Notes under the pieces: generated by a model
Told to the model about the DNA's origin: nothing
The model's database searches: none
What the model saw: the letters and a program-made list of their open reading frames with translations, nothing else
Part shown: positions 16,759 to 32,659 of the stretch, in pieces
Numbering within the stretch: position 1 is the first letter of the stretch
Layout of the letters: each line of letters opens with the position of its first letter
Translations under genes and position numbers: made by a program
Assembly: GCA_016806715.1 (NCBI GenBank)
Contig: CP060531.1
Span: 729,966 to 793,965 of the forward strand
Source: Thermoplasmatales archaeon
GTDB lineage: Archaea; Thermoplasmatota; Thermoplasmata; Thermoplasmatales; Thermoplasmataceae
Direction of reading: 5' to 3'
Length of the DNA: 64,000 bases

Positions 16759-16803
16759 AAGCCGCCGACGGGATTCGGACCCGCGACCTTGTGCTTACCA
16801 AGC
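16759..16803 (-). repeat. Left attachment site: 45-bp copy of the tRNA-Thr 3' part
   Basis: Identical to 32585-32629 and covering the anticodon loop to the 3' end of tRNA-Thr on the minus strand. The match ends abruptly after CCAAGC, where the left side continues as int(C) and the right side as the tRNA 5' half. It also encodes the integrase residues SRRRDSDPRPCAYQA. Confidence 0.93.
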
Positions 16804-17599
16804 CGCAATCCCAAGGGTTTCTGAGCATTTTTATAACCTTAACAAATGGATGAACGGCAAGGGTTACACAAAGGGCTATAAGACCCAGGTGAACAAATAT
16901 TTGAAGGAGAGTTTTGACGATAGGTCCATAGAAAACGTAAAGGAATTATCAAGGATAATATTAGCAGGTAGAACCCAATATATCAGGACCGTAGCCAGAG
17001 TTTATCTCAACTTCCTTGAGGAGAATGAAATACTGTCAGGTGAGGATGCTGATTATTTCAGGAAGGCCATACCGTCAAGAAAGACCTCTCCAGACGGTTT
17101 CATACCTTCAGATGAGAAGGTCAGGGAAGTATATTCTAAGATCGAAAGTGAGCCTATGAAAATAGCATTCTCAATTCTGGTAGCATCAGGAATACGCATA
17201 ATGGAACTTGTGAAGATGCTGAAAGAATTTGACAGGAACAAACTCATTGTGAATGGTGATATCGCAAAATATCCTCTGAACTATTTTAGGGGTCACAAGA
17301 AGGCATTCTATGTATACATGCCTAAAAAACTGGCCCTATCTCTAGAAAAAGCTGAATTGAACGATGACACAATTTCCCATTACTTCAGTGAGCTTGGACT
17401 TGCCCCGAAGTATCTCAGGAAGTGGCAGTACAATTTCCTCATTTATCAAGGAGTACCAGAGGGAGTTGCAGATTTCATCCAAGGAAGATCCCCAGAATCG
17501 GTTGGGTCAATGCACTATCTTTCGAAGGTTAAACAGGCAGATTACTGGTATAGCCTCATTGAGAATAAAATATATACAAAAATCATGACACTTTCCTAA
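16760..17599 (+). CDS. Integrase C-terminal part, int(C), of a split SSV-type tyrosine recombinase
   Basis: The catalytic portion (279 codons) of the element's integrase, separated from its N-terminus by integration. The recombinase residues are visible: VASGIRIMEL (first Arg), FRGHKKAFYVY (Lys region), APKYLRKWQ (KxxR box), QGRSPESVG (Gly-Arg) and SMHYLSKV with the nucleophilic Tyr. This pattern is that of archaeal SSV-like integrases. The frame opens upstream at 16748 but has no proper start; its first residues are translated tRNA sequence. Joined to int(N) at the core it gives 334 aa, close to SSV1 integrase. In this state the catalytic half has no N-terminal part, so excision needs a supplied enzyme. 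Confidence 0.9.
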   Translation, partial: SRRRDSDPRPCAYQAAIPRVSEHFYNLNKWMNGKGYTKGYKTQVNKYLKESFDDRSIENVKELSRIILAGRTQYIRTVARVYLNFLEENEILSGEDADYFRKAIPSRKTSPDGFIPSDEKVREVYSKIESEPMKIAFSILVASGIRIMELVKMLKEFDRNKLIVNGDIAKYPLNYFRGHKKAFYVYMPKKLALSLEKAELNDDTISHYFSELGLAPKYLRKWQYNFLIYQGVPEGVADFIQGRSPESVGSMHYLSKVKQADYWYSLIENKIYTKIMTLS

Positions 17600-17604
17600 G
17601 AAAG

Positions 17605-18540
17605 ATGGGGTCGAAGCAACTATATCCATTCAAATTATCCAAGAATATGGGAAGAAGTTCACTTATTGTAATACTCATAATTTTGTTTTTTGTCGTTATT
17701 CTATCGGGATTTTACTATTTTACAATTGTTTTCACTCTACTCGGAAGTGTTTTCGGTGCCTTTATTGCATTCGTGGTTGGTAACTGGGTCTGGAAATGGT
17801 TCATTGCTCCGAAAATTCGTATAAATATTGTGGAGCCACCTCAGACTATGAATGTATGTCAACCAAAACAGCCCGAAATACATGAAGGAAACTATGGCAT
17901 GCATCAGTCAGACTATTTCCAACCAATGCAATCTACTACAAATGTGTCAGGCACCATTACAAATTCTGGAACAGGGTGCAGGCAATTTGAAATGAAAAAC
18001 CCATCAGAAAGTTATTGTCAAGAAATACAAATATACGTACTGGAAGTAATTAACGAAGGCAAGTCGGCAGCTAGGAACTCTTTATTATTCTTCCGCATCA
18101 ATAATATCAATAAGATCTGCAAATGGAACTCCGTTCCTGAACCAACATTAGGTGGTTCACAACATTTCTATGATGTTTATCAAAGACTTACGCTGCTCCA
18201 GGGCCTATCTGATAGGGCAGCCTTTGTTTTTAGGTTCAGCGAAGATAAGCCATATCAGTTACGGCAGTATGACCTGACCCTTCTATACGGCTCAAACCCA
18301 GTTAGCATAGAGAAGTTAAAACAAGACTCTAATATGATAGATTGCAGCAAGGAAGTAAAAGGAGAACTGTTACTTTATTCGGAAGATTATCAAGGGAAAT
18401 GCAGTATATCATTTTCTTACAGTGAGGAGCAAAGTAAAATTACGATCTCCCTGAACCAATCGAAAACGCATGAGCGGGATGGTTATAGGAGTATACGGGT
18501 AAAAGAAAGCGATAAGTCTTTTGAAATACCCTCTCGATGA
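17605..18540 (+). CDS. Unknown membrane-anchored protein
   Basis: I do not recognise this 311-aa protein. Residues ~15-65 form one or two membrane helices (SSLIVILIILFFVVILSGFYYF and LLGSVFGAFIAFVVGNWVW). A hydrophilic, beta-rich domain follows from ~75, containing IRINIVEPPQ, IQIYVLEVINEGKSAARNSLLFF and DLTLLYGSNPVS. The stretch VINEGKSAA resembles Ig-like or CARDB-type folds with an N-G-K turn, but that is weak. It starts 5 nt after the int(C) stop; ATG 17647 is an alternative start just before the first helix. Being last before the element's left end, it was downstream of the integrase in the circular form. Confidence 0.75.
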   Translation: MGSKQLYPFKLSKNMGRSSLIVILIILFFVVILSGFYYFTIVFTLLGSVFGAFIAFVVGNWVWKWFIAPKIRINIVEPPQTMNVCQPKQPEIHEGNYGMHQSDYFQPMQSTTNVSGTITNSGTGCRQFEMKNPSESYCQEIQIYVLEVINEGKSAARNSLLFFRINNINKICKWNSVPEPTLGGSQHFYDVYQRLTLLQGLSDRAAFVFRFSEDKPYQLRQYDLTLLYGSNPVSIEKLKQDSNMIDCSKEVKGELLLYSEDYQGKCSISFSYSEEQSKITISLNQSKTHERDGYRSIRVKESDKSFEIPSR

Positions 18541-18688
18541 CTCGTAGAGCCAGTACAATAGCCTCGCAGAAGAGATTGTTTATGGGTGCCTTCCTACTTG
18601 TTATTTCTGGGAATGAATTATTGTTGTTGGGTGATGTAAGAGTAACAGTGAGAACCTACCTCTGAACATTTTTCACAGGAGTTGTATT

Positions 18689-18711
18689 TCAGTGACTTCA
18701 GGAGTCACTGA
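18689..18711. terminator. Perfect 9-bp hairpin between two element genes
   Basis: TCAGTGACT-TCAGG-AGTCACTGA forms a 9-bp stem with a 5-nt loop. It lies between the membrane protein gene and the convergent winged-helix gene. It may be a terminator, although no T-run follows on the plus strand. Directly after it comes GGAGGTAAAATG, which opens a 27-codon ORF. Confidence 0.45.
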
Positions 18712-18720
18712 GGAGGTAAA

Positions 18721-18804
18721 ATGGCCCTCAATTTAGTATGGAGATTGGGACTTAACTGGCACTCAGTTTTTTCAATGTCTGAGTTAGAGAATTCTTCAAT
18801 CTAG
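18721..18804 (+). CDS. Possible 27-aa small protein with a strong ribosome site
   Basis: The ATG at 18721 is preceded by GAGGAGGT at ideal spacing, just after a stable hairpin. The peptide begins MALNLVWRLGLNWHSVF and ends ELENSSI. It overlaps the antisense 3' end of the winged-helix gene. I cannot tell a real small gene from chance; the ribosome site is the only support. Confidence 0.25.
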   Translation: MALNLVWRLGLNWHSVFSMSELENSSI

Positions 18805-19660
18805 TCGCATCCCCCATCTTCTTTGGATCTTCAAACGAAAGGTCAATTTCCCTGTCCTCCAGCTCTATTAATTTTACTTCGAAGAGTGCAGTAATTTTCT
18901 CCATTCCATAGTGCTTGAAAAAAATTTCAGAAATATCTGAAATCAGTTTTGCCCTTATATCTGCCTGCTCTTTACTCGCATCAATGTTTCTTGTGAAGAG
19001 GGATTCAACCAGCTTTTTGGCTTCTTCATCCGTATAAACATAGCATAAGACATCAAAACTTGTTTTTGAATGTTCATTGATGTTAGTTTCCGTTGCTCCC
19101 AAAAGTCTATATGTACACGATTCAAATATGCTCCTCACGGCAGTCGACATGCTGTTTCTCTCATCTTTCTTGAGCAATGGGCTCAACCTTCTTATCTGCG
19201 GTTCCAGGAACTTAAAAAGCTCTCTCTCACAGTTGTAGATGTCCTCTTCAGGGATTTTTCCATAAAATCTTGCAATTTCTATAACATCTTCCAGTGATAC
19301 CAGTGGATACCCACTGAATTCTCTCTGGATAATAGTTAGAAAATTATATGGGGAATTTTTGCCGTCATAATCTTTGATTTTCTCCATTACTTTCTGCCAT
19401 TTCTCGGCTTTTCTTTTGTCTTTATGGAAGATATAATGTTCTTCGACGCCTAGCCCGAATAAATCTTTTTCCTCACTGGAAAGCTCATATATCAGGCCGT
19501 ATTCAAATCTCAATCTGTTATATGTTCTGTAGAATGTTGCCCTAGGTATTGCCTTTTCAACTTTCTTCTGTAATTCAGAGGTTTTCCATGGCCTATCTGT
19601 GTAGTAACGAAGGAGCGTCAACTCATTTTCACTTAACTTTTTCTCAAAATCTATTTCCAT
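18752..19660 (-). CDS. Winged-helix DNA-binding protein of unknown role
   Basis: 302 aa, with no family recognised for the whole length. Residues ~8-60 (LSENELTLLRYYTDRPWKTSELQKKV then PRATFYRTYNRLRFEYGLIYEL) look like a winged helix with a PxATFYRTYxRL recognition helix, similar in layout to PadR/MarR-type regulators. The rest is Lys/Glu-rich and helical (RRLSPLLKKDERNSMSTAVRSIFESC, EDREIDLSFEDPKKMG). It is divergent from the AbrB-like/primase operon across a ~130-bp A+T-rich promoter region, so it may control replication of the element. Inference only. Confidence 0.75.
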   Translation of the reverse strand: MEIDFEKKLSENELTLLRYYTDRPWKTSELQKKVEKAIPRATFYRTYNRLRFEYGLIYELSSEEKDLFGLGVEEHYIFHKDKRKAEKWQKVMEKIKDYDGKNSPYNFLTIIQREFSGYPLVSLEDVIEIARFYGKIPEEDIYNCERELFKFLEPQIRRLSPLLKKDERNSMSTAVRSIFESCTYRLLGATETNINEHSKTSFDVLCYVYTDEEAKKLVESLFTRNIDASKEQADIRAKLISDISEIFFKHYGMEKITALFEVKLIELEDREIDLSFEDPKKMGDATRLKNSLTQTLKKLSAS

Positions 19661-19788
19661 TTAGTATCAATATTATTGTAAGGTCTCATTGTATTTACTT
19701 TTTACTTGCATTAGTGATATCAATTTTTTACATTGTATAGTATCATATATTCACAAAAAACACATAAGATGACACCCGATAGGACATC
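19661..19788. promoter_or_regulatory. Divergent A+T-rich promoter region of the element's replication genes
   Basis: 128 bp between the winged-helix gene (minus) and the AbrB-like gene (plus). It holds TATA-like ATATTATTG near the left and CATATATTC near 19744-19752. It is the most A+T-rich short spacer next to the replication gene and is therefore a candidate origin, without further support such as iterons. Confidence 0.35.
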
Positions 19789-19959
19789 ATGGAATCATTA
19801 GTTATAGGTTCTAGGAAGATAGGGAGACGAGGGAAAGGACTCTGCATCATGTTGCCATCCATTTGGCTTAAAAATATAGACAGTACCGTTGGCAGCACAG
19901 TTACCTTAACAATTGAGGATAATAAGCTAATCGTTGAGCCGGAGGTGAAGAAGAAATGA
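19789..19959 (+). CDS. Small AbrB/SpoVT-like swapped-hairpin protein
   Basis: 56 aa, beginning MESLVIGSRKIGRRGKG and ending KLIVEPEVKKK. The pattern of a short strand, Gly-rich basic turn, PSIWLKNIDSTVGSTVTLTIEDNKLIVEP is that of AbrB-type swapped-hairpin domains (compare PxxxxxxLgixeGdxvxlxxxdgxlvi). Such proteins bind DNA as dimers, often as antitoxins or regulators. Its stop overlaps the primase start by ATGA (19956-19959), so the two are translationally coupled. This suggests copy-number control or a replication accessory role rather than a toxin-antitoxin pair. Confidence 0.8.
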   Translation: MESLVIGSRKIGRRGKGLCIMLPSIWLKNIDSTVGSTVTLTIEDNKLIVEPEVKKK

Positions 19960-22481
19960 GTTCGACAGTTTCGCCCCCGCCGAACTCAATACAAGAATTC
20001 ATAGAGCAAATTAAGCCTTTCGCAAGACATTTTTCGAGTAGGGTTGAAGCTGCCCTGTACTTTGCAGATAAAGGAATATCGGTTTTTCCAGTACATACTG
20101 TGAGAAATGGGAAATGCACCTGCCACAAAGGTGAATCCTGCAAGAATCCAGGAAAACATCCTATGCACAAGAACTGGCAGGATGAGGCCACAACAGATCC
20201 AGAGAAAATAAAAAGGATGTGGCTAGCGAATCCTGATGCCAATATCGGTCTGGCTATGGGGAATGGCCTAATTGGAACCGACATAGATGTGAAGAATGGA
20301 AAGGATGGGTGGAAAGAATGGCTGGAAATTCTGAAACTTTATAACAGTGACCAGATAGTTTCCTTGATTCAGGCCACTCCTTCTGGTGGATTGCACATCA
20401 TACTAAAAGTCAAGGACTCCTCGATTATCACTGGCGCTTCAGATGCCCTGGGAATGGGGATTGACATAAGAAGCGATGGAAATCTTCTTGTTGGAGGCGG
20501 CTCAGAGAACGATAAGGGCACATACAGGGTCTTTGACCTTCCTATTGGTAGCGCACCTGGATGGCTTGAATCCATAATGATTGGCAAATCGAATTGGGTC
20601 AAGTCCATGATAAAGAGGATAAATACAGGCGCAGTTTTCAATGAAGGTGAGAGGAACAAAGCGTGTGTTGCATACTCTGTTAAGCTAAACAGGGATGGGT
20701 ACACAAAGACCGACTTTCAGGAAAAACTCAGAGAATTCGCAAGAACCCGATGTGCCCCCTCATATGAAGATCCTGCACTGGAATACATTGTTGACCATTA
20801 TTGGAATCCTACGAAGATAATCCATGCGGAAACTCCGACTTTCATGGACCTTGGAAAGCCAGATTTTAAGATTTGGGAAGGTCCAGAAGAAAATGTAAAG
20901 GAATGTTTGACCACACTATACGAGTACATACCGCAAGGCCCTGATGAAACCTACGAGCTCGCGAAGCGGAATCTTCCAAACATGTTGATGCAGTATCTGA
21001 AACACTTTTTCCATGTCACAAGAGAAATAGCATTCGGCAAACCCACAGACCTTCTCTACTGGTACAATGGACGTTATTACGAATACGAACCCACTGACCT
21101 TGAATTGAGAAGTAAGATGGAATACCTTACATCCAATCACATCACCGGCAGCGAGAAAAATGAGGTGATTGCAAAGCTTATGGACAATGCCTATTTCGTG
21201 GAACAGCAGGAGAGGTATGTTTCGCTTGAGAATAAACTTCTTGACTGCGAGAATTGGAGAGTTATTGATTTCACACCGGAAATATTTGCCACAGTTCACC
21301 TACCTGTGAAATTCGACCAGTACGCAACGCATTCACTGTGGGACAAATTCCTAAGCGATGTTGTATCACCAGAAAGCATTCCGAGACTACAGGAGCGGGC
21401 CGGCTACACACTGATTCCAAGATATCCAATAAAGAAGAGCTTCCTTGCAATAGGACCAACAGATAGCGGTAAGACAACATTTCTCTTAGCGATTAAGAAT
21501 GTTCTTGGGTTAACCAACGTCTCGGCCGCAACTCTCCAGCTTCTCTCAAGCGTAGACCAGCGTTTTGCCGCCTCTAAGCTGTTCAAGAAGCTGGCAAATA
21601 TTGCGCCTGATATGCCATCCAACTCACTGGGTGACATCAGCACTTTCAAAGCAATAGTAGGAAGGGATCTTGTAAGCATTGAGTTTAAGTACAGACAGGC
21701 CTTCGACGCACAACTGAGGTCAAAACTTCTCTTTTCAGCCAACTCTCTGCCGCATGTAAAGGATGATGACGAAGCGTTCTTCAACCGGTGGGACATTATA
21801 GTGTTTCACAAGCCGCCATTGATTGACAGCCAATTGGACATGAAGCTAGCGAACGAGGCATCAGGCATCCTCAGCTGGATGATTGAAGGAGCGAAGAAGA
21901 TAACGGACAACGGAATGAAGTTCTCTGAGAGCACCCCAACAGCCGAAGCAATGCGGATATGGGAGATTGCCTCTAACCCAATAAGAGCGTTCTTCAATAG
22001 ATGCGTGGTAAAGGAAGGAGATGAAGAATGGCCAACTTCCGATTACTATGCAGCCTTCAAGAAATTCACAAATGCATACCATGCTAAGCTTGTGGATGAG
22101 GACGTCTTTGACCCGCAGTTCTCGAAAATCAGCAGGACTCAGATTATCACCAGGCAGAGAAACAATGAAAAGGCCAAGTTAAGGAAAGGCCTCAAAATCA
22201 GAGACGAAAGTGAGTGGTTGCAGTCAGATATGGCAAACTCAGAAGTTGATGAACAACAAGAATATGAGCCAAGTAAAATCTACGGGCTTGTAACGAAAAC
22301 CTTCTCCAATCTAAGTCCGGCGCCAAGAGAACGTGACAATATCGAGAGATGGATTTCATCTGAATTTGGCGTTACCATACAGAAAGCACAGTTACTTGTT
22401 GATGAATGGACCTCCAAGGGCCTGGTAACACTAAATGGAAAGCACCTTGAATTTCAAAGGGATGGCGATTCCGATGCTTGA
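19956..22481 (+). CDS. PrimPol-helicase replication protein (bifunctional primase/polymerase plus SF3 helicase)
   Basis: An 841-aa protein expected to start and drive replication of the element. Residues ~25-220 form an archaeo-eukaryotic primase-like PrimPol domain: a Cys/His zinc stretch (CTCHKGESCKNPGKHP), the catalytic DxD in LIGTDIDVK (~106) and the HxI/L motif in TPSGGLHIIL (~145). Residues ~340-690 are an SF3-type helicase: Walker A GPTDSGKTTF (~499), a Walker B-like LANIAPDMPS, and the C motif in LLFSANSLPHVKDDDEAFFNRW. A winged-helix-like tail follows (IERWISSEFGVTIQKAQLLVDEW). The architecture matches replication proteins of archaeal plasmids and viruses. Confidence 0.92.
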   Translation: MSSTVSPPPNSIQEFIEQIKPFARHFSSRVEAALYFADKGISVFPVHTVRNGKCTCHKGESCKNPGKHPMHKNWQDEATTDPEKIKRMWLANPDANIGLAMGNGLIGTDIDVKNGKDGWKEWLEILKLYNSDQIVSLIQATPSGGLHIILKVKDSSIITGASDALGMGIDIRSDGNLLVGGGSENDKGTYRVFDLPIGSAPGWLESIMIGKSNWVKSMIKRINTGAVFNEGERNKACVAYSVKLNRDGYTKTDFQEKLREFARTRCAPSYEDPALEYIVDHYWNPTKIIHAETPTFMDLGKPDFKIWEGPEENVKECLTTLYEYIPQGPDETYELAKRNLPNMLMQYLKHFFHVTREIAFGKPTDLLYWYNGRYYEYEPTDLELRSKMEYLTSNHITGSEKNEVIAKLMDNAYFVEQQERYVSLENKLLDCENWRVIDFTPEIFATVHLPVKFDQYATHSLWDKFLSDVVSPESIPRLQERAGYTLIPRYPIKKSFLAIGPTDSGKTTFLLAIKNVLGLTNVSAATLQLLSSVDQRFAASKLFKKLANIAPDMPSNSLGDISTFKAIVGRDLVSIEFKYRQAFDAQLRSKLLFSANSLPHVKDDDEAFFNRWDIIVFHKPPLIDSQLDMKLANEASGILSWMIEGAKKITDNGMKFSESTPTAEAMRIWEIASNPIRAFFNRCVVKEGDEEWPTSDYYAAFKKFTNAYHAKLVDEDVFDPQFSKISRTQIITRQRNNEKAKLRKGLKIRDESEWLQSDMANSEVDEQQEYEPSKIYGLVTKTFSNLSPAPRERDNIERWISSEFGVTIQKAQLLVDEWTSKGLVTLNGKHLEFQRDGDSDA

Positions 22482-22803
22482 GCAGCGGGGGGCCTATCTT
22501 TACAGGAATGGATATGTTGTCGGAAAACTCCAAAAGCCGTATTGCATTGCGGTGCGTGACAGGAGGCACTATTTCAGGAAGTATGATGGTTTTGCCCTTG
22601 CTGTTGAATCTTATGAATGGTTGATTGAAAATGGGTTCACATACTTCCAGATAAGATACCAACCCGAAAACAGAATCTTTATCTACAGAATTTCAGATTT
22701 CGTGATTGGTTACAGGATTGATTATCCTCCTCATGGTGAGCAGTATGTCTTGTCAAAATCAAAGAGCCTCGTGATACCCAAAATATCAAATTTGGATAGG
22801 TAG
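22462..22803 (+). CDS. Unknown small protein downstream of the primase
   Basis: About 113 aa, not recognised. It overlaps the primase end, with possible ATG starts at 22462 or 22474. The sequence is rich in aromatic and basic residues (RGAYLYRNGYVVGKL, RRHYFRKYDGFALAVESYEWL, FTYFQIRYQPENRIFIYRISDFV), suggesting a compact alpha/beta protein. It ends convergent with the metallopeptidase gene, overlapping by 18 bp. An open reading frame in operon with the primase is the main support. Confidence 0.65.
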   Translation: MAIPMLEQRGAYLYRNGYVVGKLQKPYCIAVRDRRHYFRKYDGFALAVESYEWLIENGFTYFQIRYQPENRIFIYRISDFVIGYRIDYPPHGEQYVLSKSKSLVIPKISNLDR

Positions 22804-23223
22804 CCTTCTCTGACTGCCCCCTATATACCGTACTGCCATCTGAAATTTCTCGTCATGGTGCTTGGAAAATACATGGGCAAGCTCATGGATGAGAATTTCC
22901 CTTATGTCAACTCTGGCTAGTTTAATGGCATCTTCTCTGACTAAAATAGTTGAACCTTTAAGCATGGAGAGTATGGACTTATCCCTGAATTTCTTGACAA
23001 GTTCAAAATCTATTTCCCCTACAAGGTAGAATTTACCGTTACCTGACAGTTTGGAAAATTCTGATTTTAGAACCCATTTCAATCTCATTCTCAGATAATC
23101 TCTGAGTGCGTACTCGTCAAAGGAAACTGGAACGTAAAGAATCTGGCCAATTTGTTTGGGCATTTTCCTTTCAGATCGAAGGATTCTAGTCTTTCTGCCT
23201 AAGATGGTGATTTCAGAATCCAA
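22786..23223 (-). CDS. YgjP/WLM-like metallopeptidase associated with the type I restriction locus
   Basis: 145 aa with the zinc motif HELAHVFSKHHDEKF at about residue 110 (HExxH followed by a His six residues later), preceded by IREILIHEL, the layout of YgjP/DUF45-type metallopeptidases. Such small peptidases are frequently encoded beside hsdR. The N-terminal part (ITILGRKTRILRSERK, then YVPVSFDEYALRDYLR) is shorter than in the usual ~230-aa family members. It overlaps the end of hsdR by 11 bp, so it is the last gene of the hsdMSR operon. Confidence 0.8.
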   Translation of the reverse strand: MDSEITILGRKTRILRSERKMPKQIGQILYVPVSFDEYALRDYLRMRLKWVLKSEFSKLSGNGKFYLVGEIDFELVKKFRDKSILSMLKGSTILVREDAIKLARVDIREILIHELAHVFSKHHDEKFQMAVRYIGGSQRRLPIQI

Positions 23224-26197
23224 AGGTCTCCCTCAAGCCCTTGTATATAAGTTCCACAATAGTGTCTTCCTCTGGAACACTGGCAGGGTTAAGCACTTTA
23301 ATAGCAGAATATCTTATGGACTTCATAATATCTTTCCTATCTACTTTCCTTACATTTCTTTCTCCCTTCAGAAGGAGTTTTATGCCCTTTCTATCGGCCA
23401 AATTCTCGCAGAATAAGTTGAACACATTATCCCCCATGTCACTGATAGCAGCCTTTATTGCTTCCTTGAAGGCAGTCTTTGTTTCACCCTCAACTGATTC
23501 CGCAGAATCGATTGAGTCCATCCTTTCTTTTATTGATTTTATTTCATTGAGGATCTCTTCATTTACGGCTTTGGCCTTCATCAATCTCTGATATGCGTTC
23601 ACTATCCTCTCCAGAAGGCTTGGATACCTGAATCTTCTGTTTGAAACATCCATATGCCATGTATTGAGTACTCTCAGGGCAGCCGCATAATCCCTAGTCT
23701 TTCCTAGTCTTTCCAGATAGGTTCTGTCTATGGTGAAGTTACCCTTATTCTCCACCTCTAAAAAGAAATTTTCGCTGACAATCTTCTTGACCCTTTCATA
23801 GGCTTCCTGCACCTTCTGCTCATTAACGCCACCCAGCTTCAGATTGTTAATATACACACCATATGCCTTGGCAAGAACCTTGTATCTATTCATGTGGGCC
23901 ATAAGGTATGTTTTTGCCCTTGGCAGGTTAAGGATTGCAGTCAGCTTTCTGAAATTCTTCTCAAATCTGTCAGATATCTCTGAGTCGGAGAGAATTTTTA
24001 TCAGTCTGTCTAGGTTTTCATGACTGTCATTTGAGAAATCGAAATCTCCAAAGATAGCATATGTCTCATCCAGCAACTGAACAAAATCTTTTTCAATTTC
24101 CTCTCTTGATATAACTATACCCCGAATGCCTGCCTCCGATGACATGCCTTCATATTTTTTCAGCGTCTTGTTGAGTGTTTCAAGAAGATATACGTAATCA
24201 ATAACGTAACCGTAATCCTTAGTGGTGAATGGTCTGTCAGTCCTCCCTATGGCTTGAAGAAGGCGTTCTTCGAACAGAGGTTTAGCAAGATACATGACCC
24301 ACAGCCTTGAGGAATCAAAACCCGTGAGGAGCATATCCGTCACGATGAGAATTTTCGGATTATAAGATAAATCAAAATTCGCAGCGAATTCCTTGCACGC
24401 TTTCTTTACGTCCTTCCCTGTTCTACTTTCAAGTTCGTCTTTGTATTCTTTAATAAGATCTGAGGTTTCATTATAGCCAAAGGTCATTACAACCTCAGAT
24501 GCCTCGGGAGAAAGCAGTGTGTCCAGCTTTCTCTTGTACATGACACACGCCTCTCGGTCAACGGCAACCAGCATTGCTTTTAATCCATTATTGCTGTTTT
24601 CCACTTCATTCTGGAAATGACTGGCCACATCTCTTGCAATGGTTTCCACATTTGCCTCTGTTTTATACAGTTCCTTGATGACCCTTATCTTTCTGTTCAG
24701 GAGTTCTTTTTCCGTTTCGGTTAAATATTCTACTTCTTCATCGTGGTTAAGTGCTTCCTTGATTATCTGGTCTTTTACAGCAGGAATCGCAGCATTGTAC
24801 TCATAGGCTATCGGAACTGTGAAGCCATCATCCTGAGCGTCCTTCATACTATACCTGTCGAGGTACAGTTCTCCTGGAGGGCAGAATTCCTCGAATGTGT
24901 TCCTGATCTTTCCTCCTGTGCTTTTTCTGATTGGGGTACCTGTGAAACCAAAGACGAAGGCATTAGGAAATGCGTTTCTGAAAGTCCCAGCCATCAGACC
25001 GTACTGAGTCCTGTGGCTCTCATCAACCAGGCATATCACATTCCCCCTTTCCAAGGAAGGATTCTTTGCTACAGATCTGAAATTTTCCGGGCTAAATTTC
25101 TGTATCGTAACAATGAAGATTCCTGGTTTCCCGTTTCCGTTGTTGTAAGAAATAAGTTCTGCCAGCTCTGTTGTGCTGCCTATACTCTGAGTAACCTCCA
25201 AACCTTGTATGTCAGAAAAATGTGTTAGGGCCTGATTGTCGAGGTCTTTCCTGTCTACCACAATGAGGAGCGTGGCATCTGGTAATTTCTTTCTTATCTG
25301 ATATGCCGTGTTAGCCATTATTAAGGTTTTGCCTGAACCCTGCCAGTGCCATATTAATCCGGTTTTCACTGATTCCTTTTGGGTTCTGTTCAGATTATCA
25401 TCTATTCGCCTGAGTATCTTCTCAGTGGCCCTGAACTGCATATATCTGGCCATTATCTTCTCATTCCTGTCGCCCTTCTTCCTTATGTGAATATAATTTG
25501 TTAGAATCTTTACAAAGTTGTCAGGATGAAAAACCCCGTATAGAAGCACTTCAACCTCATTTTCCGGTGTTGGTTCGAGCGGGTACGATGTTTTCCATTT
25601 TGCCAGTGTGTCATCTCCTTTCTGATTGAAGAACAGAGGAAAGAGCTCGCCCTTTACGCCATTGTTTATTACTGCAATCTGAAGGTAAGTGAACATTTCC
25701 CTTACACTTTCCTCATATCCCTTTATCTGGTTATATGCAAGTTCAAGAGTGCCCATATTGTAGGGGTTCTTGTTTTCCATAATCACAAGAGGCATTCCGT
25801 TGACAAACATTACAATATCAGGCCGCTTGTTTGACTTTCCCTTTATATTAAACTGATTTGTGACAATAAAGCTATTGTTGTGTATCTTTGTTTCGTCAAG
25901 CAATCTGATTGTGTGAATCTGCCTGTTTTCGTCCACAACGTTAATTCCGTGCTTCAGAAAGTCCAGAAATTTGGAATTTCCATCCTTTGAGGGCGTCAGT
26001 TCATCCAATTTTGAAATTGCATCTGAAATCAGTGTTTCAGGAACGGAATTAATTTTCCTTACACTTTCCAGGAGATTCTCTTTCAGCAGAAAGACGTAAT
26101 TATTCCTTTCTTCGAGTTCTTCCGAGGAGTTGTAAATCCATCCGTAATCCTGGAGTTTTCTTATAATCCAGTTCTCATTGGAAGCCTCGCTAACCAT
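23213..26197 (-). CDS. hsdR: Type I restriction enzyme R subunit (HsdR)
   Basis: A 994-aa motor and nuclease subunit that translocates and cuts DNA lacking the host methyl mark. The N-terminal nuclease shows RPDIVMFVNG and MENKN (PD...ExK, residue ~140). The SF2 translocase has Walker A WQGSGKT (~288), LVDESHRTQ (DEAD-type box, ~392), FGFTGTPI (motif III) and QAIGRTDRPF (motif VI). The long helical C-terminus (EFCPPGELYLDRY onward) would contact the HsdM/HsdS core. The length is typical and no break is visible, so it looks functional. hsdS ends where it starts (single-base overlap at 26197). Confidence 0.95.
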   Translation of the reverse strand: MVSEASNENWIIRKLQDYGWIYNSSEELEERNNYVFLLKENLLESVRKINSVPETLISDAISKLDELTPSKDGNSKFLDFLKHGINVVDENRQIHTIRLLDETKIHNNSFIVTNQFNIKGKSNKRPDIVMFVNGMPLVIMENKNPYNMGTLELAYNQIKGYEESVREMFTYLQIAVINNGVKGELFPLFFNQKGDDTLAKWKTSYPLEPTPENEVEVLLYGVFHPDNFVKILTNYIHIRKKGDRNEKIMARYMQFRATEKILRRIDDNLNRTQKESVKTGLIWHWQGSGKTLIMANTAYQIRKKLPDATLLIVVDRKDLDNQALTHFSDIQGLEVTQSIGSTTELAELISYNNGNGKPGIFIVTIQKFSPENFRSVAKNPSLERGNVICLVDESHRTQYGLMAGTFRNAFPNAFVFGFTGTPIRKSTGGKIRNTFEEFCPPGELYLDRYSMKDAQDDGFTVPIAYEYNAAIPAVKDQIIKEALNHDEEVEYLTETEKELLNRKIRVIKELYKTEANVETIARDVASHFQNEVENSNNGLKAMLVAVDREACVMYKRKLDTLLSPEASEVVMTFGYNETSDLIKEYKDELESRTGKDVKKACKEFAANFDLSYNPKILIVTDMLLTGFDSSRLWVMYLAKPLFEERLLQAIGRTDRPFTTKDYGYVIDYVYLLETLNKTLKKYEGMSSEAGIRGIVISREEIEKDFVQLLDETYAIFGDFDFSNDSHENLDRLIKILSDSEISDRFEKNFRKLTAILNLPRAKTYLMAHMNRYKVLAKAYGVYINNLKLGGVNEQKVQEAYERVKKIVSENFFLEVENKGNFTIDRTYLERLGKTRDYAAALRVLNTWHMDVSNRRFRYPSLLERIVNAYQRLMKAKAVNEEILNEIKSIKERMDSIDSAESVEGETKTAFKEAIKAAISDMGDNVFNLFCENLADRKGIKLLLKGERNVRKVDRKDIMKSIRYSAIKVLNPASVPEEDTIVELIYKGLRETFGF

Positions 26198-27465
26198 CAG
26201 ACCTTCACTCTTACCTTCCCTGTCAGGAGATGGTTCATCAGGCCTTTTTTCAGAACCTCAAGTTTTTCTTTTTTCCTTCTTAGCAGTTCCAATTTACTAT
26301 CTACCGTGGAGAGAATTTCAGCTATTTTCTGCTGCTCAGCCATAGGGGGAAGAGCTATACATAATTTCGTGACGATATTAGCATTAAGATTGTCTTGAGT
26401 GGTGGTTCTTAAGTACGGTCTTAACGAATCCTTCTTGTTTTCCAGTTCATAATAAAGAAAATCAACGGACACATTACTTTCGTTCGGAATAAGAGATAGT
26501 ATGGCTTGATTAGTAGCCACTGGAATTTTATTTATGGATACTTTCCCATAACTGGCATACATAGAGTACAAAATAGAATCGACAGGCGTCAACCAAGAAC
26601 TGCTGTTCCTGAGTCCGTATTCTGTTATAAATTCGGTGGTTTTTACAATAAATTTTGGAGAATTTACCATATCTTCTATCTTTACAAATGGTATTGTCCC
26701 GTTTTCATAATATTCTTTAACAGACCGAAGTGGTGTGCCACCTGCACGGGCTTTTACTGTTATCCTAGGATCGCCTAGTTCGACACATCCCCATTCCTCA
26801 GGTATCTCCCCAATCTCAGTCTTCTTAAATCTTGTATGACTGATTCCTCTAGTGAGAAGTTTCTGCATCAGTCCCTTCTTGAGCTGTTGGGTCAGAGCTA
26901 TCTGTTCATTCACTTTATGTATTGCATCATCTGCCGTGGAGAGGATATCTGTAATCTTGTTCTGTTCTGTGATAGTAGGAACTGGAAACATTAAATTGAA
27001 AAGGGAATCCTTGGGAACTCTTTGCCGTCCCGTTGTTCCAACCATGCTGTTGATTAGTGGTTTTCTGAATAAATCCATCTTCAGCAGATAAAATGTAAAT
27101 AGATTTGTGAGAGTATTTCCTGGGACTATCGGGTATACTTCAGAAGTTGCAAGAGCAAATCCGGTTGGTAGATTTGGGACAATCCCCAGTTTTCCGTTTT
27201 CAACAGATGGTGTGATTTTGGGAAGAAGAATATCGCCAGCCTCGCAATAGGTGGGAGGTATTACTTCGTTTGATTCTATGGCTTTGTATTCGCAATATGT
27301 GCCATTTTCGGGAATCAGATCCATAGGAATAGTGTATAATTTTTCCAATTTTTCACTGGTCTTTCTCTTTCTAATCTGCAGTATTTCGCCAAAAGGTTTT
27401 AAATCCCACTCTTCAGGTATCTCCCCAATCTCGCATATTTTGTATCCGGTCTTAGTCAATATAAC
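26197..27465 (-). CDS. hsdS: Type I restriction enzyme specificity subunit (HsdS)
   Basis: Sets the DNA sequence recognised by the methylase and nuclease. There are two half-subunits, each starting with the classic EIGEIPEEW phrase (residues ~10 and ~232), each with a target-recognition domain followed by a conserved helix (PTITEQNKITDILSTADDAIHKVNEQ and PPMAEQQKIAEILSTVDSKLELLRRKKEKL). I favour a TTG start at 27465, which has AAGGAG 10 nt upstream and matches the usual family N-terminus. Longer starts at ATG 27486 or 27501 run further into hsdM. The two TRDs differ, giving a bipartite site that cannot be predicted by eye. Confidence 0.92.
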   Translation of the reverse strand, partial: VILTKTGYKICEIGEIPEEWDLKPFGEILQIRKRKTSEKLEKLYTIPMDLIPENGTYCEYKAIESNEVIPPTYCEAGDILLPKITPSVENGKLGIVPNLPTGFALATSEVYPIVPGNTLTNLFTFYLLKMDLFRKPLINSMVGTTGRQRVPKDSLFNLMFPVPTITEQNKITDILSTADDAIHKVNEQIALTQQLKKGLMQKLLTRGISHTRFKKTEIGEIPEEWGCVELGDPRITVKARAGGTPLRSVKEYYENGTIPFVKIEDMVNSPKFIVKTTEFITEYGLRNSSSWLTPVDSILYSMYASYGKVSINKIPVATNQAILSLIPNESNVSVDFLYYELENKKDSLRPYLRTTTQDNLNANIVTKLCIALPPMAEQQKIAEILSTVDSKLELLRRKKEKLEVLKKGLMNHLLTGKVRVKV

Positions 27466-28972
27466 CGAGCTCCTTGAGATAACCATTGAGCTTATTCTCA
27501 ACCTCGCCTAAATCCATGTTTATCTCATTCAGTTCCTCAATAGCGGCCGACATATCAATAGAAATCTCGTTGTTCACTGGATTTACAAAGGCGCTGACAT
27601 TTAAATTGTAATCTTTTGCTTTAATCCCGTCCACACTAACAACTTTTGAAAATCCACCGTTCGATTCGAATTTTCTATAAGCAGAAACTATGTGGCTGAT
27701 ATTATCATCAGTGAGAATATTCAGTTTCCGGATACTTGGGTGCTTTCCGCATTCCTTAGAGGCATCTATGAACAGAATTTCATCCTTGTGATCTTCGGGT
27801 TTGTGCCTGTTGAAAATAAGTATAACTCCGGCTGCTCCTGTGTTGTAGAATATCTTTTCAGGTAACAAAATGACGGATTCCAGAATCTTTTCCTCAACTA
27901 TCTCCTTCCTGATGATTTTCTCTGAGTTGCTTCTGAAGAGTGCACCTTGGTCCATGATTACTGCAACCTTGGTTTTTGCCGTATACAGCATGTGCTGGAT
28001 CCATGCCCAGTCTCCGTATCTCTGGGGAACTGACCCATATGAATATCTGTCTTTGAATTCCGCCTGCTTCAACGTATCTTCACCATACCCTTTCTGGGCC
28101 CATGGCGGATTTGCTAGGACAAGATCGAAAGACTTCAACCCTGAGGCAGTCTTGAATTTCGGATAAAGAAGGCTATCTCCGACTTTCAGATGAGATTCAG
28201 ATATCCCATGAAGAATTGTGTTCATTTTTGCAAGGGCATATGTAGTTGGGCTTCTCTCCTCTCCATAAAGACCAACACGATTTGCGCTGTCTTCACCTAT
28301 CTTGCGTTTGACATGCTCATACGCCTCTATGAGCATACCACCTGAACCGCAGGCCGGATCGTATATGCTCTGTCCAGGTTGGGGATCCAGGATATCAACC
28401 ATCAGCCTGACCACTTCCCTTGGGGTATAAACTTCGCCCTCCTTTGCCTTCTCAGGTGCAAAACGCATAAGGATATGCTCATAGGCGTCTCCCATGGCAT
28501 CCCCTTCGATGCACTTATTTGAAAAATTGTACTTATCGAATAGGGCAAATAATTGCTCAAGAAGAATCCTGTTCTCCCTGCTCTTTGTGAAATCTATGAA
28601 ATCTATCCTGTTGACTACGCCGTCAAGTTCCCTGTTCTCCTTTGCGATGTCGTTTATGGCCCTGGACAGGTTTTCCGTGAGCTTTTCCTTATCTTTCTTT
28701 ATGTTGTCCCAGAGTACATTCTCAGGTACCATGAAACTATGATATTCTTCTCTTACTGCACGTTTGATTGCCTCAGATTCATCAATCCCGGTTTCTTCCA
28801 TGATTTCGATCTTAGCGTCCTCAACTTCCTCTTTCCACCGGTCACTCAGTCTTTTAATAAATAGAAGAACCAGAATGTACTTGTAATCAACGGAAGTTCT
28901 TATCAAATCTGCCGCATCGTCCACCAGTTTGATAAGATCGTTCTTTGTGACTTTTCCAAAACAATCAACCAT
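27452..28972 (-). CDS. hsdM: Type I restriction-modification methyltransferase subunit (HsdM)
   Basis: An adenine-N6 methylase, 506 aa from ATG 28972 (ATGs at 28978 and 28987 also exist). HsdM features: an N-terminal helical domain (LIKLVDDAADLIRTSVDYKYILVLLF), YTPREVVRLMVDIL, the SAM-binding DPACGSGGMLIEA and the catalytic LANPPWAQKG (NPPW/Y). It heads the operon hsdM-hsdS-hsdR-metallopeptidase on the minus strand. The complete set suggests an active restriction system carried by the element, which may protect both host and element and enforce retention of the element. Confidence 0.95.
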   Translation of the reverse strand: MVDCFGKVTKNDLIKLVDDAADLIRTSVDYKYILVLLFIKRLSDRWKEEVEDAKIEIMEETGIDESEAIKRAVREEYHSFMVPENVLWDNIKKDKEKLTENLSRAINDIAKENRELDGVVNRIDFIDFTKSRENRILLEQLFALFDKYNFSNKCIEGDAMGDAYEHILMRFAPEKAKEGEVYTPREVVRLMVDILDPQPGQSIYDPACGSGGMLIEAYEHVKRKIGEDSANRVGLYGEERSPTTYALAKMNTILHGISESHLKVGDSLLYPKFKTASGLKSFDLVLANPPWAQKGYGEDTLKQAEFKDRYSYGSVPQRYGDWAWIQHMLYTAKTKVAVIMDQGALFRSNSEKIIRKEIVEEKILESVILLPEKIFYNTGAAGVILIFNRHKPEDHKDEILFIDASKECGKHPSIRKLNILTDDNISHIVSAYRKFESNGGFSKVVSVDGIKAKDYNLNVSAFVNPVNNEISIDMSAAIEELNEINMDLGEVENKLNGYLKELGYID

Positions 28973-29142
28973 GACCATACAACTCAAAAAGATAAACGCA
29001 ACAAGATGATATTAATGTTCGTGGCAAATTAACCAGAATTGTTTTTGATTTTAAGCTCAGGCACCACAGTAATTCCGGTAAGATTGACAAATAAACAAGC
29101 TTCACCAAATTTATTAATACCAAAGAATGTATTATTCTCTGA

Positions 29143-29697
29143 ATGACCACCTGTTGCCATTGTGGTAGAGATCTCACTTACAAAAGAAGCGTGAGTAGAG
29201 GCTGTGGTTCTTGGTGTTATTACAATAAAGGTGATTGTGGCTTTGGTGATAATTATCAGGACGATATGCCTGACAACCAACCAGAAAACCTCCGGGGGAG
29301 GGTAGTAAAGGGGTTGATTAAAGGAGCGATTATAGGCGCTGCACTAGGTGTTACCTGTGCACTCGCACATGTAGTTTGCATAATCGCTGCTTTCAACCAA
29401 CATTATCCCTATTTAAAAACGGCAGCATATTCAGTTTATTCTGTATTGAAGAACAAAACTGAACATTCTGAACATCCCGTTAAAGAGGCTGCCTTATCAG
29501 GAACACTGAAAACATCAAATGCCGCTGGCATCGATGCGCTAGCTTCTAAGCTCGGTGCCAAATTTGCCGAAGTTGCCCACGAGAGGTTCGGTGCATCATT
29601 ATCTTGGGCAGGAGAAATAGGAAAGGAAACAGGCAGAGGAATGCTTGAGCATGGTTCTAGTGCCGTAATTGATTGGTTCTCAAAGGCGGTAGTGTGA
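29143..29697 (+). CDS. Zinc-ribbon membrane protein of unknown function
   Basis: 184 aa. The N-terminus TTCCHCGRDLTYKRSVSRGC plus GSWCYYNKGDC offers Cys pairs for a small zinc ribbon. Residues ~50-85 contain a Gly/Ala-rich membrane helix (LIKGAIIGAALGVTCALAHVVCIIAAF). The C-terminal part is soluble and Ala-rich (SNAAGIDALASKLGAKFAEVAHERF). A TATA-like TTTATTAATA ~25 nt upstream suggests a leaderless start. The protein is divergent from hsdM. No family recognised; the Gly-rich helix recalls zinc-ribbon stress or bacteriocin-like proteins, which is weak. Confidence 0.7.
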   Translation: MTTCCHCGRDLTYKRSVSRGCGSWCYYNKGDCGFGDNYQDDMPDNQPENLRGRVVKGLIKGAIIGAALGVTCALAHVVCIIAAFNQHYPYLKTAAYSVYSVLKNKTEHSEHPVKEAALSGTLKTSNAAGIDALASKLGAKFAEVAHERFGASLSWAGEIGKETGRGMLEHGSSAVIDWFSKAVV

Positions 29698-29702
29698 TAG
29701 AA

Positions 29703-30017
29703 ATGGAAGATACAAATGATAGAGATATGAACTTCTCAGAAAATTTTGTCATCATATCATCAAGGAAGACGGATTTTTTAACTATATTTATTAAGATATT
29801 TATCCAGAAATTGAAATCAGAAGGTAAAGTCCACATAACTCCAGGCATCATTTCAAAAATTGTGCATATAGTGGCTTCATTGGATCCTTTGCTGTTTGTA
29901 AGCCCGAGTGAACTCGAAGAAGGGCATCTTCATCTAGATACCAAGCTGGAAAAGCTTGATAGAGAAAAGATAGGAGAAGAAGTGTACAGAAAAATGAGTG
30001 AAGAGGGCGAAAAATAG
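29703..30017 (+). CDS. Unknown small protein following the zinc-ribbon gene
   Basis: About 104 aa from ATG 29703, 5 nt after the previous stop; the frame is open from 29673. It begins MEDTNDRDMNFSENFVIISS. It has a helix-rich, charged sequence (FIKIFIQKLKSEGKVHITPGIISKIVHIVASL) and an acidic end. No membrane helix and no motif known to me. Close spacing suggests a joint transcript with the zinc-ribbon protein. Confidence 0.6.
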   Translation: MEDTNDRDMNFSENFVIISSRKTDFLTIFIKIFIQKLKSEGKVHITPGIISKIVHIVASLDPLLFVSPSELEEGHLHLDTKLEKLDREKIGEEVYRKMSEEGEK

Positions 30018-30084
30018 AAAGTGCCACATAAGTTTTATTTTACTAATCGCTTGTTAAGCTCTTAACGACACTACTGCCTCCGTA

Positions 30085-30300
30085 TCAATTGTAACCGTAC
30101 TTCGAGTCGAATAAATACAGAAACAGGTCAGCTCTATAAACAACTTTGACCACATCCAATGCATCTGGCTCTACGTGGCCTGGGTGACTAACACGATTCC
30201 TGGCATCTCTGAGACATTCAAGATCCACATACGTGTCGTTTCCATATTCGTCCTGAATAATCTGCCTGAGCTTATTCAGTAAAGCAGCAAACTCCTTCAC
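30085..30300 (-). CDS. HEPN-type C-terminal half (RxxxxH motif)
   Basis: 71 aa starting at a GTG that overlaps the stop of the upstream gene (30297-30300). LRDARNRVSHPG has the Rx4H motif (Arg34-His39) of HEPN ribonucleases, followed by helix DALDVVKVVYRADLFLYLFD. A full HEPN domain needs two more helices before this; those are at the end of the upstream frame (IIRKATLGVERLLYAIYWKIF). The pair therefore looks like one domain cut by a one-base frame change, or two coupled chains that assemble. HEPN RNases act in toxin-antitoxin and antiviral systems. Confidence 0.7.
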   Translation of the reverse strand: MKEFAALLNKLRQIIQDEYGNDTYVDLECLRDARNRVSHPGHVEPDALDVVKVVYRADLFLYLFDSKYGYN

Positions 30301-31205
30301 TTCGGCTCTTCATTGAAGATCTTCCAGTAGATCGCGTAAAGCAGCCTTTCCACACCCAGAGTGGCTTTCCTGATGATGTCCTCTGTTTCATATCTGTCAG
30401 GTTCCCTGGATCTGTGCACTGAATCTTGAATTTCTTTTCGTGCTCTGGATATCTCCTGAAGCTGCCTAGAAACGGAAAGGAACGGAAATTTTTTTTCAAT
30501 ATGCCTCTTAGCGGAATTTATCAGGTCTCTGAACTCTCCTCTGTAGTCCTTCTGTTCGTCTGAGAGATATCTATCAACGAACTCTTCCACTGACAGAAAC
30601 TCCCATCCTGGTAACTCGCTTTTCAGTCTCTTCTTAGTCTCGTACATCTTTTCTTTGAATAGCCTGAAGAGGAACGGGTCCGGGATGATATAACTTGCTG
30701 TGTGCTGCATTTTCCCTTCATTCGTATTATGGGAAATATCCTGTATCAACCTATCCGTAGCCCATTCAACACTAAAACTCAAATGACCATCAGGGTCAAG
30801 CATTGGTCTGTCTCTGATTAGATGGATAGATACGTAATCTGTGGGGTCATAAGCTTTACTGAAATCTAGGCTTTCTTGTACCTCCTCACCTCCTCCTGTA
30901 ACCGCGGCATCTCGATAGTGCCATACCATGTCTTCATGGCTCAGGCCAGACTCTTCCAAGGACTCATCGATATATCCCTTTCTGAGAAGAGCCAAGGCTA
31001 GGTATGATTGAAGAAGGTTTTCGTATATTCTCATTAGGTTGTCATATAGGCTCGCCACACTCATAATGCTTGCAGAGAATTTTGAAGGCAAATCATGGGG
31101 TCTCACGGTCAGAAACTTCTGCAGGTCACCGTAAACGTCAAACTCCTTTCGAAGGGTTTCATCGAGTTGTTCGAGACTCACCGTATCAAGGCTATAAATC
31201 TTCAT
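30297..31205 (-). CDS. Unknown helical protein ending in the first half of a HEPN domain
   Basis: 302 aa with a good GGAGGG ribosome site 6 nt before the ATG. The main body is all-helical and unrecognised (LYDNLMRIYENLLQSYLALALL, SVEWATDRLIQDISHNT, YETKKRLKSELPGW). The end KATLGVERLLYAIYWKIFNEEPK matches the first HEPN helices. The next frame continues without a gap as KEFAALLNKLRQII...RNRVSHPG. Read together the product would be ~370 aa, consistent with a larger HEPN effector. I cannot tell from one sequence whether the break is real, a read error or a programmed shift. Confidence 0.7.
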   Translation of the reverse strand: MKIYSLDTVSLEQLDETLRKEFDVYGDLQKFLTVRPHDLPSKFSASIMSVASLYDNLMRIYENLLQSYLALALLRKGYIDESLEESGLSHEDMVWHYRDAAVTGGGEEVQESLDFSKAYDPTDYVSIHLIRDRPMLDPDGHLSFSVEWATDRLIQDISHNTNEGKMQHTASYIIPDPFLFRLFKEKMYETKKRLKSELPGWEFLSVEEFVDRYLSDEQKDYRGEFRDLINSAKRHIEKKFPFLSVSRQLQEISRARKEIQDSVHRSREPDRYETEDIIRKATLGVERLLYAIYWKIFNEEPK

Positions 31206-31751
31206 TACATTCCCTCCACAGCTTAAACAGATATATCTCTTGCTGTAGTGTATCTATCTCTAAAAAACCCTCTCAACAACTTGCAAACCCTGTAATAGAG
31301 CCTTCCACTGAAAAATGTTCGGGAGTGCGTTTCTATTGTTACTTTCTACAGTCCCAATATAATTTTTCCTAGCGAGAAATAACAAGTAGAAAGACATCCA
31401 TCAAGACTTTAATGAAGAACCGCTATTTCATTGACTCTACATGTTGTTGACTGGGTAATTGTTGAATCTCCACTCCTCAATTTCTGTATCAGGCATTTTG
31501 TTGTTTTTTGAAAATAATTTCCGACATTGTCGGGGTGCCTAAATCGGAGAAGGCTTTGTAGGAACTGCAAGGTCTGAGTGCATCTTTTCGGTCATGAATA
31601 CCACACATCTGGAGATTCGGGTGAGGTCCTAATTATGCTACAGAAAACTTATTTTTCTCAAAATAAATAGCTATAGAACAGATATGTGGCTTATAGACGA
31701 CCATTATGTGATTCTGTAAATGTTGATATATGTGAAATTCAATGGTTACTT
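31206..31751. other. Long non-coding stretch in the element
   Basis: About 545 bases with no convincing gene on either strand. It contains the perfect 13-bp palindrome CCGACATTGTCGG (31521-31533) and several T-runs. It separates the HEPN operon (minus) from the RHH/zinc gene (plus), so both promoters must lie here; a small RNA is possible but unsupported. Confidence 0.4.
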
Positions 31752-32390
31752 ATGCCAAAGAGTAAACATTACCCGCCTTCTTACATAAGGTACCAGATCG
31801 AGCATCCTCCCGTGACGGTGCATCTAAGCAGGAAAGTGAAAGAGAACCTGGATTCCGTTAAGGGAAACCGGTCATATGCGGAAGTAATCACAGATATCAT
31901 GAACGAAACATTCAACCTGGAAAAGGAAATAAAGAAATTGCCAGCTAGTGAAGCCGTCATATCTTATCGCAGAGGGTTCAAGGAGGCAAAAGCCAGGTAT
32001 GCGCAGTGGGGAACCTGCAATAAATGTGGGGAAGAGTGGGTTATATGGGAAGACGGAAAATGCGATCGTTGCCACAATAAAGGCCCCGGGCCTGATTATT
32101 CATATTTCAGGGATAGCGAAACTGCCAAAGTTGTGAATGAAGAGGATTTCTCAAAGGCAGGTGTGAAGCTTCCAAGTCTTGAAAAACTATCATACGAGAA
32201 CGGCAAGAAGAGCGGGCAAGCCAAAGGCTGGGAAGATGGTTACAAAGATGGAGAAGAGGACTTCAAGATAACGTATCCTTGCAGCATCTGCGGAAAGTCT
32301 ATTGAAATGAAACCGGGTGGTGATGACCATAAGGCCATGGCTGAATACATGAGGGAGCATGGATGGCAACACGGAAGTTGTGGAAAGTAA
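31752..32390 (+). CDS. Ribbon-helix-helix and zinc-finger protein of unknown function
   Basis: 212 aa from ATG 31752 (an open frame extends to 31686). Residues ~18-57 (PVTVHLSRKVKENLDSVKGNRSYAEVITDIMNE) have the strand-helix-helix layout of RHH DNA-binding proteins. Next comes a zinc ribbon CNKCGEEWVIWEDGKCDRC (residues ~88-106). A Gly/Lys-rich linker repeats the phrase GKKSGQAKGWEDGYKDGEED. The final CSICGKSIEM with HGWQHGSCG supplies another Cys/His set. Such RHH plus zinc proteins are common on archaeal plasmids and viruses. It lies 30 nt before int(N) and may regulate integration. Confidence 0.75.
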   Translation: MPKSKHYPPSYIRYQIEHPPVTVHLSRKVKENLDSVKGNRSYAEVITDIMNETFNLEKEIKKLPASEAVISYRRGFKEAKARYAQWGTCNKCGEEWVIWEDGKCDRCHNKGPGPDYSYFRDSETAKVVNEEDFSKAGVKLPSLEKLSYENGKKSGQAKGWEDGYKDGEEDFKITYPCSICGKSIEMKPGGDDHKAMAEYMREHGWQHGSCGK

Positions 32391-32419
32391 CTATGGGAGT
32401 ATTTAAATCCATAAATAGA

Positions 32420-32435
32420 CATGTGCATGCACATG
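32420..32435. promoter_or_regulatory. Perfect 16-bp palindrome over the integrase start codon
   Basis: CATGTGCATGCACATG reads the same on both strands and includes the int(N) start ATG at 32421 and the next in-frame ATG at 32427. A TATA box, TATTTAAAT (32400-32408), lies ~20 nt before it. Because the integrase carries an RHH DNA-binding domain, self-repression at this site is plausible. Confidence 0.6.
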
Positions 32436-32648
32436 CAGAAGAATTTGACTTTGAAAGTCGATGAAGAGCTCGTAGAAAAGGCACACAGGTACGGCATCAA
32501 CATCTCTAAATTCCTTGAGTACTCACTCGACAACGCCTTCAGGCATGGTTTTGAAAACCTCTCCAAAACACAAGAAAATACTGTAAGCCGCCGACGGGAT
32601 TCGGACCCGCGACCTTGTGCTTACCAAGCACACGCTCTACTAGGCTGA
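32421..32648 (+). CDS. Integrase N-terminal part, int(N), with ribbon-helix-helix domain
   Basis: The first part of the split integrase. MQKNLTLKVDEELVEKAHRYG and INISKFLEYSLDNAFRHG form a typical ribbon-helix-helix domain (residues ~5-42). Then come a short linker and the 45-bp core encoding SRRRDSDPRPCAYQA. After the core the frame continues only seven codons in tRNA-Thr sequence to a stop at 32646-32648. In the circular element residues after the core would be AIPRVSEHFYNLNKW from the int(C) side. Codon phase is identical at both cores, which supports a single ancestral gene of 334 codons. An RHH domain fused to the integrase is not a feature I know from SSV1 itself. Confidence 0.88.
   Translation: MCMHMQKNLTLKVDEELVEKAHRYGINISKFLEYSLDNAFRHGFENLSKTQENTVSRRRDSDPRPCAYQAHALLG
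32585..32629 (-). repeat. Right attachment site: 45-bp core within tRNA-Thr
   Basis: Identical to 16759-16803. Here it is joined to the tRNA 5' half and restores a complete tRNA-Thr gene after integration, as is usual for tRNA-targeting elements. Confidence 0.93.
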
Positions 32649-32659
32649 GCTACGGCGGC
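32586..32659 (-). tRNA. tRNA-Thr (anticodon GGT)
   Basis: 74 nt. Acceptor GCCGCCG pairs with CGGCGGC, D-arm GCTC/GAGC, anticodon stem TGTGC/GCACA with loop TTGGTAA giving anticodon GGT, and T-arm GCGGG/CCCGT around TCCGAAT. CCA is not encoded. It is complete and should be functional; its 3' part from the anticodon loop on is supplied by the integrated element. Confidence 0.95.

Follow-up and report, generated by a model that had tools for sequence, protein, structure and literature searches.

A suicide integrase from a Thermoplasmatales element with a ribbon-helix-helix head and a candidate operator over its own start

Ribbon-helix-helix (RHH) proteins such as CcdA and CopG bind their own promoters through an N-terminal domain at start-proximal palindromes or repeats, and lambda Int carries a small N-terminal DNA-binding domain that binds arm sites for recombination. 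The archaeal integrase described here likewise places a small, putatively DNA-binding domain at the N-terminus of a tyrosine recombinase, but its candidate site lies within the int promoter, and it differs from the CcdA/CopG autoregulators in having no toxin partner and a C-terminal recombinase rather than a toxin-binding tail. Its closest described counterparts are the PF16795 integrases of SSV1, SSV2, pSSVi and the pT26-2/pTN3 families, in which, as here, att lies inside int, tRNA-targeted integration splits the gene and the catalytic fold is SSV1-like. The heads of the SSV1, SSV2 and pSSVi enzymes are of the PF07935 type, whereas that of the present element is RHH; an RHH-like head is also found in the integrases of plasmids pT26-2 and pGE2. 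In the accessible part of the main review (PMC8371274) suicide integrases are given as PF16795 proteins with no mention of an RHH head, and their persistence and any role of the Int(N) and Int(C) fragments are presented as debated. The head is also not mentioned in the pT26-2 family paper (PMC6972569), and our full-text literature search returned no account of a fusion between RHH and a suicide integrase, although Badel et al. 2020 (Mol Biol Evol, pT26-2) could mention one. A DNA-binding domain was earlier proposed to regulate transcription in the case of the pNOB8-like integrases with HTH (Erauso et al. 2006, cited in PMC8371274), which unlike the present enzyme belong to a different family, use a different DNA-binding fold and are encoded by a gene that does not split itself. 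F55 of SSV1, which represses the viral early operons and also its own promoter, shows that an RHH protein acting on that promoter and on the int operon can hold an archaeal provirus quiet (PMC9608457). F55, however, is the product of a separate 55-aa gene and binds repeated 11-mers, whereas here the RHH domain is fused to the integrase and would be freed by integration.

The window, that is the whole stretch of 64,000 nucleotides analysed, is part of a single-contig genome of 1,959,588 bp and contains the following features.

16759-32629: integrated element of 15.9 kb, bounded by an exact 45-bp direct repeat
16748-17599, + strand: int(C), comprising the linker end and the core-binding and catalytic domains (PF16795, E=8.5e-51)
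16759-16803: attL, copy of the 45-bp repeat
19956-22481, + strand: primase-polymerase/D5-type helicase, the replication protein of the element (PF09250, E=1.2e-25; TIGR01613, E=1.7e-45)
23213-28987, - strand: type I restriction-modification cargo HsdR, HsdS and HsdM (PF04313/PF18766, PF01420 and PF02384)
31686-32390, + strand: gene immediately upstream of the int promoter (sequence inspection)
32400-32408, + strand: TATA-box-like TATTTAAAT of the int promoter, conserved at fixed spacing in four relatives
32420-32435: perfect 16-bp palindrome CATGTGCATGCACATG, the proposed RHH operator, with its centre 5 bases ahead of the 32433 ATG
32421-32648, + strand: int(N) open reading frame of 75 codons, beginning MCMHMQKNLTLKVDEELVEKAHRYGINISKFLEYSLDNAF
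32433-32648, + strand: int(N) from its third ATG, comprising the RHH domain (about 32433-32555), the linker and a tail encoded antisense to the tRNA
32585-32629: attR, copy of the 45-bp repeat, equal to the 3' part of tRNA-Thr
32586-32659, - strand: tRNA-Thr(GGT) (ARAGORN), intact at attR and the gene targeted by integration

Beside the primase-polymerase and the type I restriction-modification set, the element carries genes of no assigned function. A scan of IMG/VR for relatives confirmed none. The product of 31686-32390 shows by eye an RHH-like N-terminus (VTVHLSRKVKENLDSVKGNRSYAEVITDIM) followed by a CxxC zinc ribbon, and gave no significant match in a Pfam search. Elsewhere on the chromosome (1348284-1348421, - strand; L002 1501-1589) there is a second RHH int(N), decayed by two stop codons and 61% identical, which is the leftover of an older related element.

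The 45-bp att core lies within both the int(N) and int(C) frames, and joining them in frame gives 335 codons including the stop. The joined protein has 334 aa with the start at 32421 and 330 aa with that at 32433. The joined product is a PF16795 (Phage_integr_3) tyrosine recombinase in which the catalytic residues R197, K231, K268/R271, R294 and Y304 are invariant in an alignment of relatives, so that with att inside int and a tRNA gene as target it belongs to the suicide, SSV-type class. The first-pass annotation had held that the N-terminal part is an RHH fold not known from SSV1 integrase, and both halves of this claim are supported. A Pfam search of int(N) did not find the PF07935 (SSV1_ORF_D-335) head that SSV1 and SSV2 carry instead, while the first ~40 residues match CcdA (PF07362) above the cut-off (E=7e-6, 26.8 bits against 22.4). 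Seven of eight distant int(N) sequences match CcdA as well. With a profile of these distant sequences CopG and CcdA were the only DNA-binding RHH chains matched in the PDB, weakly so (E 0.07-0.3). The likeness to CcdA does not extend to the traits of a CcdAB antitoxin: the C-terminal part of Int is a recombinase and not a toxin-neutralizing tail, the preceding gene (31686-32390) gave no match to a toxin, and downstream of int(N) there is nothing that resembles one.

An AF2 model of the int(N) monomer has two helices and no ribbon, the latter being an intersubunit feature that a monomer cannot display, and a Foldseek search with this model found no significant structural match. A longer view is offered by L081 (75-17613), an Archaeoglobaceae MAG locus with two tandem integrated elements, where the middle junction between int(C) and int(N) restores an intact RHH suicide integrase of 330 aa; such tandem copies could regain excision. 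The AF2 model of this relative (pLDDT 86) comprises a two-helix head (17-46), a disordered att-coded linker (50-67), and then core-binding and SSV1-like catalytic domains, with the SSV1 integrase structures 3uxu and 3vcf as its best PDB matches. It therefore places att in a flexible linker between head and recombinase.

The perfect palindrome noticed over the int start by the first-pass annotation is there at 32420-32435, beginning one base before the 32421 start assigned to the gene. It covers three in-frame ATGs, and the int(N) frame is open from 32421 too. In the DNA preceding 221 genes of the genome, TTTAAA, TTTATA and TATTTA hexamers peak at -30 to -26, and TTTAAA at 32402-32407 falls at -31 to -26 of the ATG at 32433 but at -19 to -14 of the first ATG. 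Translation therefore most likely starts, leaderless, at the third ATG (32433), which puts the palindrome at -13 to +3; were the first ATG used, the operator could be kept partly as coding sequence. By itself the palindrome proves nothing, since about 1.15 perfect palindromes of at least 16 bp are expected by chance in 64 kb and two are present, a difference that is not significant; the second, TTCTCTTTAAAGAGAA at 53141-53156, is unrelated to the element. It is position and conservation that carry weight, because the exact 16-mer is tied to RHH int(N) starts.

A PF16795 search across the phylum at E<=1e-10 returned four genomes only, so a class-wide protein search was used instead. The exact 16-mer occurs in three of 300 genomes of the class, always at an RHH int(N) start, and a protein search of the family yielded a fourth identical copy in relative G313; a scan of IMG/VR for the palindrome gave four contigs. 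The palindrome is identical in G190, G261 and G313, and a decayed copy persists at an int(N) pseudogene in G067. Between the four 16-mer loci identity is 19-36% from -80 to -34, rises to 89-100% in the TATA box, falls to 40-70% in the ten bases between TATA box and operator, and is complete over the operator (19/19 bases, 100%). The int(N) tails of these loci are of at least two different sequences and thus point to different tRNA targets. The RHH coding DNA of the four relatives has dS of 0.37-1.48 with dN/dS of 0.04-0.16, a low ratio that cannot distinguish selection before integration from selection after it.

From this comparison we consider it probable that Int uses its RHH head to repress the promoter of its own gene, and that integration leaves a free RHH repressor. 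The suicide integrase would consist of a repressor head, a flexible att-coded linker and a recombinase; dimers formed by the heads would bind the palindrome over the start of transcription and translation and repress the int promoter, so limiting the dose of integrase in the free element by negative autoregulation. Recombination at att in the linker cuts int exactly between the RHH head and the recombinase, the integrated copy retaining the promoter, the proposed operator and an RHH-only Int(N) of 71-75 aa while Int(C) loses that promoter. If made, the stand-alone Int(N) would hold the int promoter down, and could also repress int of incoming relatives, guarding the provirus against excision by them.

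The second half of this scheme is the less secure. There is not far short of an even chance that after integration Int(N) is mere debris, autoregulation being relevant in the free element only. The int(N) copies of G067, G148 and G264 are decayed, as is the second copy in the present genome, whereas G000, G190, G261 and G313 keep int(N) with promoter, operator and RHH all intact. Transcripts of int(N) are also known in S. solfataricus, being present for pXQ1/XQ2 and absent for pSSVi (PMC8371274). As many int(N) are decayed, any function of Int(N) after integration would be at best transient or not universal.

The first-pass annotation had treated the RHH head as particular to this integrase. 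The head is indeed there, but it proves to be the rule among those PF16795 suicide integrases that were sampled from lineages other than Sulfolobales. An RHH head precedes the tRNA-coded linker in Thermoplasmata, DHVE2/Aciduliprofundales, Archaeoglobi, Thermococci, Woesearchaeota and one Bathyarchaeon. In Archaeoglobi and Thermococci 60 RHH fragments were retrieved, of which 56 overlap a tRNA gene in antisense and so represent real int(N) ends. A second Bathyarchaeal int(N), at L088 13794-14081, has a non-RHH head (MLSKAEIEFLKNPEKFDANYSRVLRHRIKVK). At L061 (9977-10933; G243:C5) the RHH integrase is intact, with 319 aa, and no tRNA-coded linker can be recognised in it; it may be a non-suicidal form, and it too has a start-site palindrome of its own.

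Each lineage of RHH integrases has its own type of repeat at the int start. In other clades TGCATGGTAATAATTATCATGCA and TGTGTATCTATGCGCATAATGACACA occupy the corresponding position: clade B (G243, G276) has TGC(A/G)TG.TAATAATTATCATGCA over the start codon, and clade C has TGTGTATCTATGCGCATAATGACACA there, with several of its sites imperfect. The clade C loci L105, L107, L114 and L120 have a second palindrome, CATGAATTTCATG, in the TATA region 27-39 bases upstream of the int start, the L107 copy differing by one base. In Archaeoglobi the palindromes are centred on ACGT and most are situated 11-14 bases upstream of the start; they come in the versions CCACGTGG, ACACGTGT and ATACGTAT, and their symmetry is held by paired changes (shuffle P=0.01 for pair 3 and <0.0005 for pair 4); between the close relatives L197 and L201 the strand residues change from NLTLY to KLTLW along with the site. 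Stop counts in int(C) and int(N) of Archaeoglobi are not fairly comparable as a measure of decay, the two being unequal in length. In Thermococci TGGGCC/TGGGAC motifs lie over the start in either orientation with 10-bp spacing, and motifs of the TGGGCC type are 19.5-fold denser there than elsewhere in these loci. Perfect palindromes of at least 8 bp centred at -16 to -2 are present at 20 of 34 RHH-int starts against 6.9% of shifted windows, and after reduction of redundancy at 10 of 20, where a set of 572 gene starts gave 5.2% (P=1.8e-8 in a binomial test), figures to be read in the knowledge that the window was set after the first cases had been seen, that the starts are inferred and that the lineages share history. 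Among the non-redundant int(N) starts, then, one in two lacks a perfect palindrome of 8 bp. SSV2 (L151, around 515), whose head is non-RHH, has an int start palindrome, CATTCTTAGAATG, at -10 to +3.

The proposal that the palindrome is an operator site for the RHH head, already made by the first-pass annotation, thus gains from the conservation and placement of the site, from compensatory changes and from the comparable sites of relatives, and negative autoregulation by the head is, as a reading of sequences, well supported by comparison. It explains the position and symmetry of the sites, their co-variation with the RHH strand and their promoter-anchored spacing. The last of these also bears on the view that the palindrome serves in recombination as an arm-type site, at which RHH, in the manner of the lambda Int N-domain, anchors Int beside attP to guide assembly or direction and has no part in transcription. 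The RHH domain does belong to the integrase itself, the palindrome remains with attR, some 150 bp away from the core, and the N-terminus of IntSSV2 governs multimerization (PMC8371274). Nevertheless we think this unlikely, as the place of the site is fixed relative to the TATA box and start codon, the distance from operator to tRNA end varies over 150-176 bp without helical phasing, and attL has no further copy in its vicinity, the core 12-mer recurring nowhere else in the element with up to two mismatches. We find it highly improbable that RHH is a dimerization module only, beside a palindrome that arose by coincidence or is left over from coding sequence (MCMHMQ): RHH domains are known to dimerize, the ATG codons of the palindrome can be coding and chance alone yields a perfect 16-mer roughly once in 64 kb, but chance or coding would account neither for a 16-mer restricted to RHH-int starts in 300 genomes nor for the different palindromes, with compensatory changes, that other clades have at the equivalent position. 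Scarcely credible is an action of the repeat in RNA, as a 5' hairpin of the int mRNA masking the start codon, for although a fully transcribed 16-mer can form a 6-bp hairpin, the TATA spacing sets the RNA start within the repeat so that the hairpin is lost, folding is no better than that of shuffles (z=0.37) and many thermococcal sites are direct repeats unable to pair.

Autoregulation by the RHH head, the reading we prefer, would provide a concrete answer to how integrase dose is controlled and possibly to how provirus immunity arises, and suggests that a built-in off-switch is common to many archaeal elements. It is a more tentative idea that in euryarchaeal and DPANN suicide integrases integration itself acts as a switch, the placing of att in the linker letting recombination turn an autoregulated integrase into a stand-alone RHH repressor that confers silence of the element together with superinfection immunity or protection from excision in trans; if true, this would explain the selective stability of integrases that disrupt their own genes. 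The RHH head and its operator also constitute a motif for locating unannotated int(N) ends, and hence the exact borders of archaeal elements.
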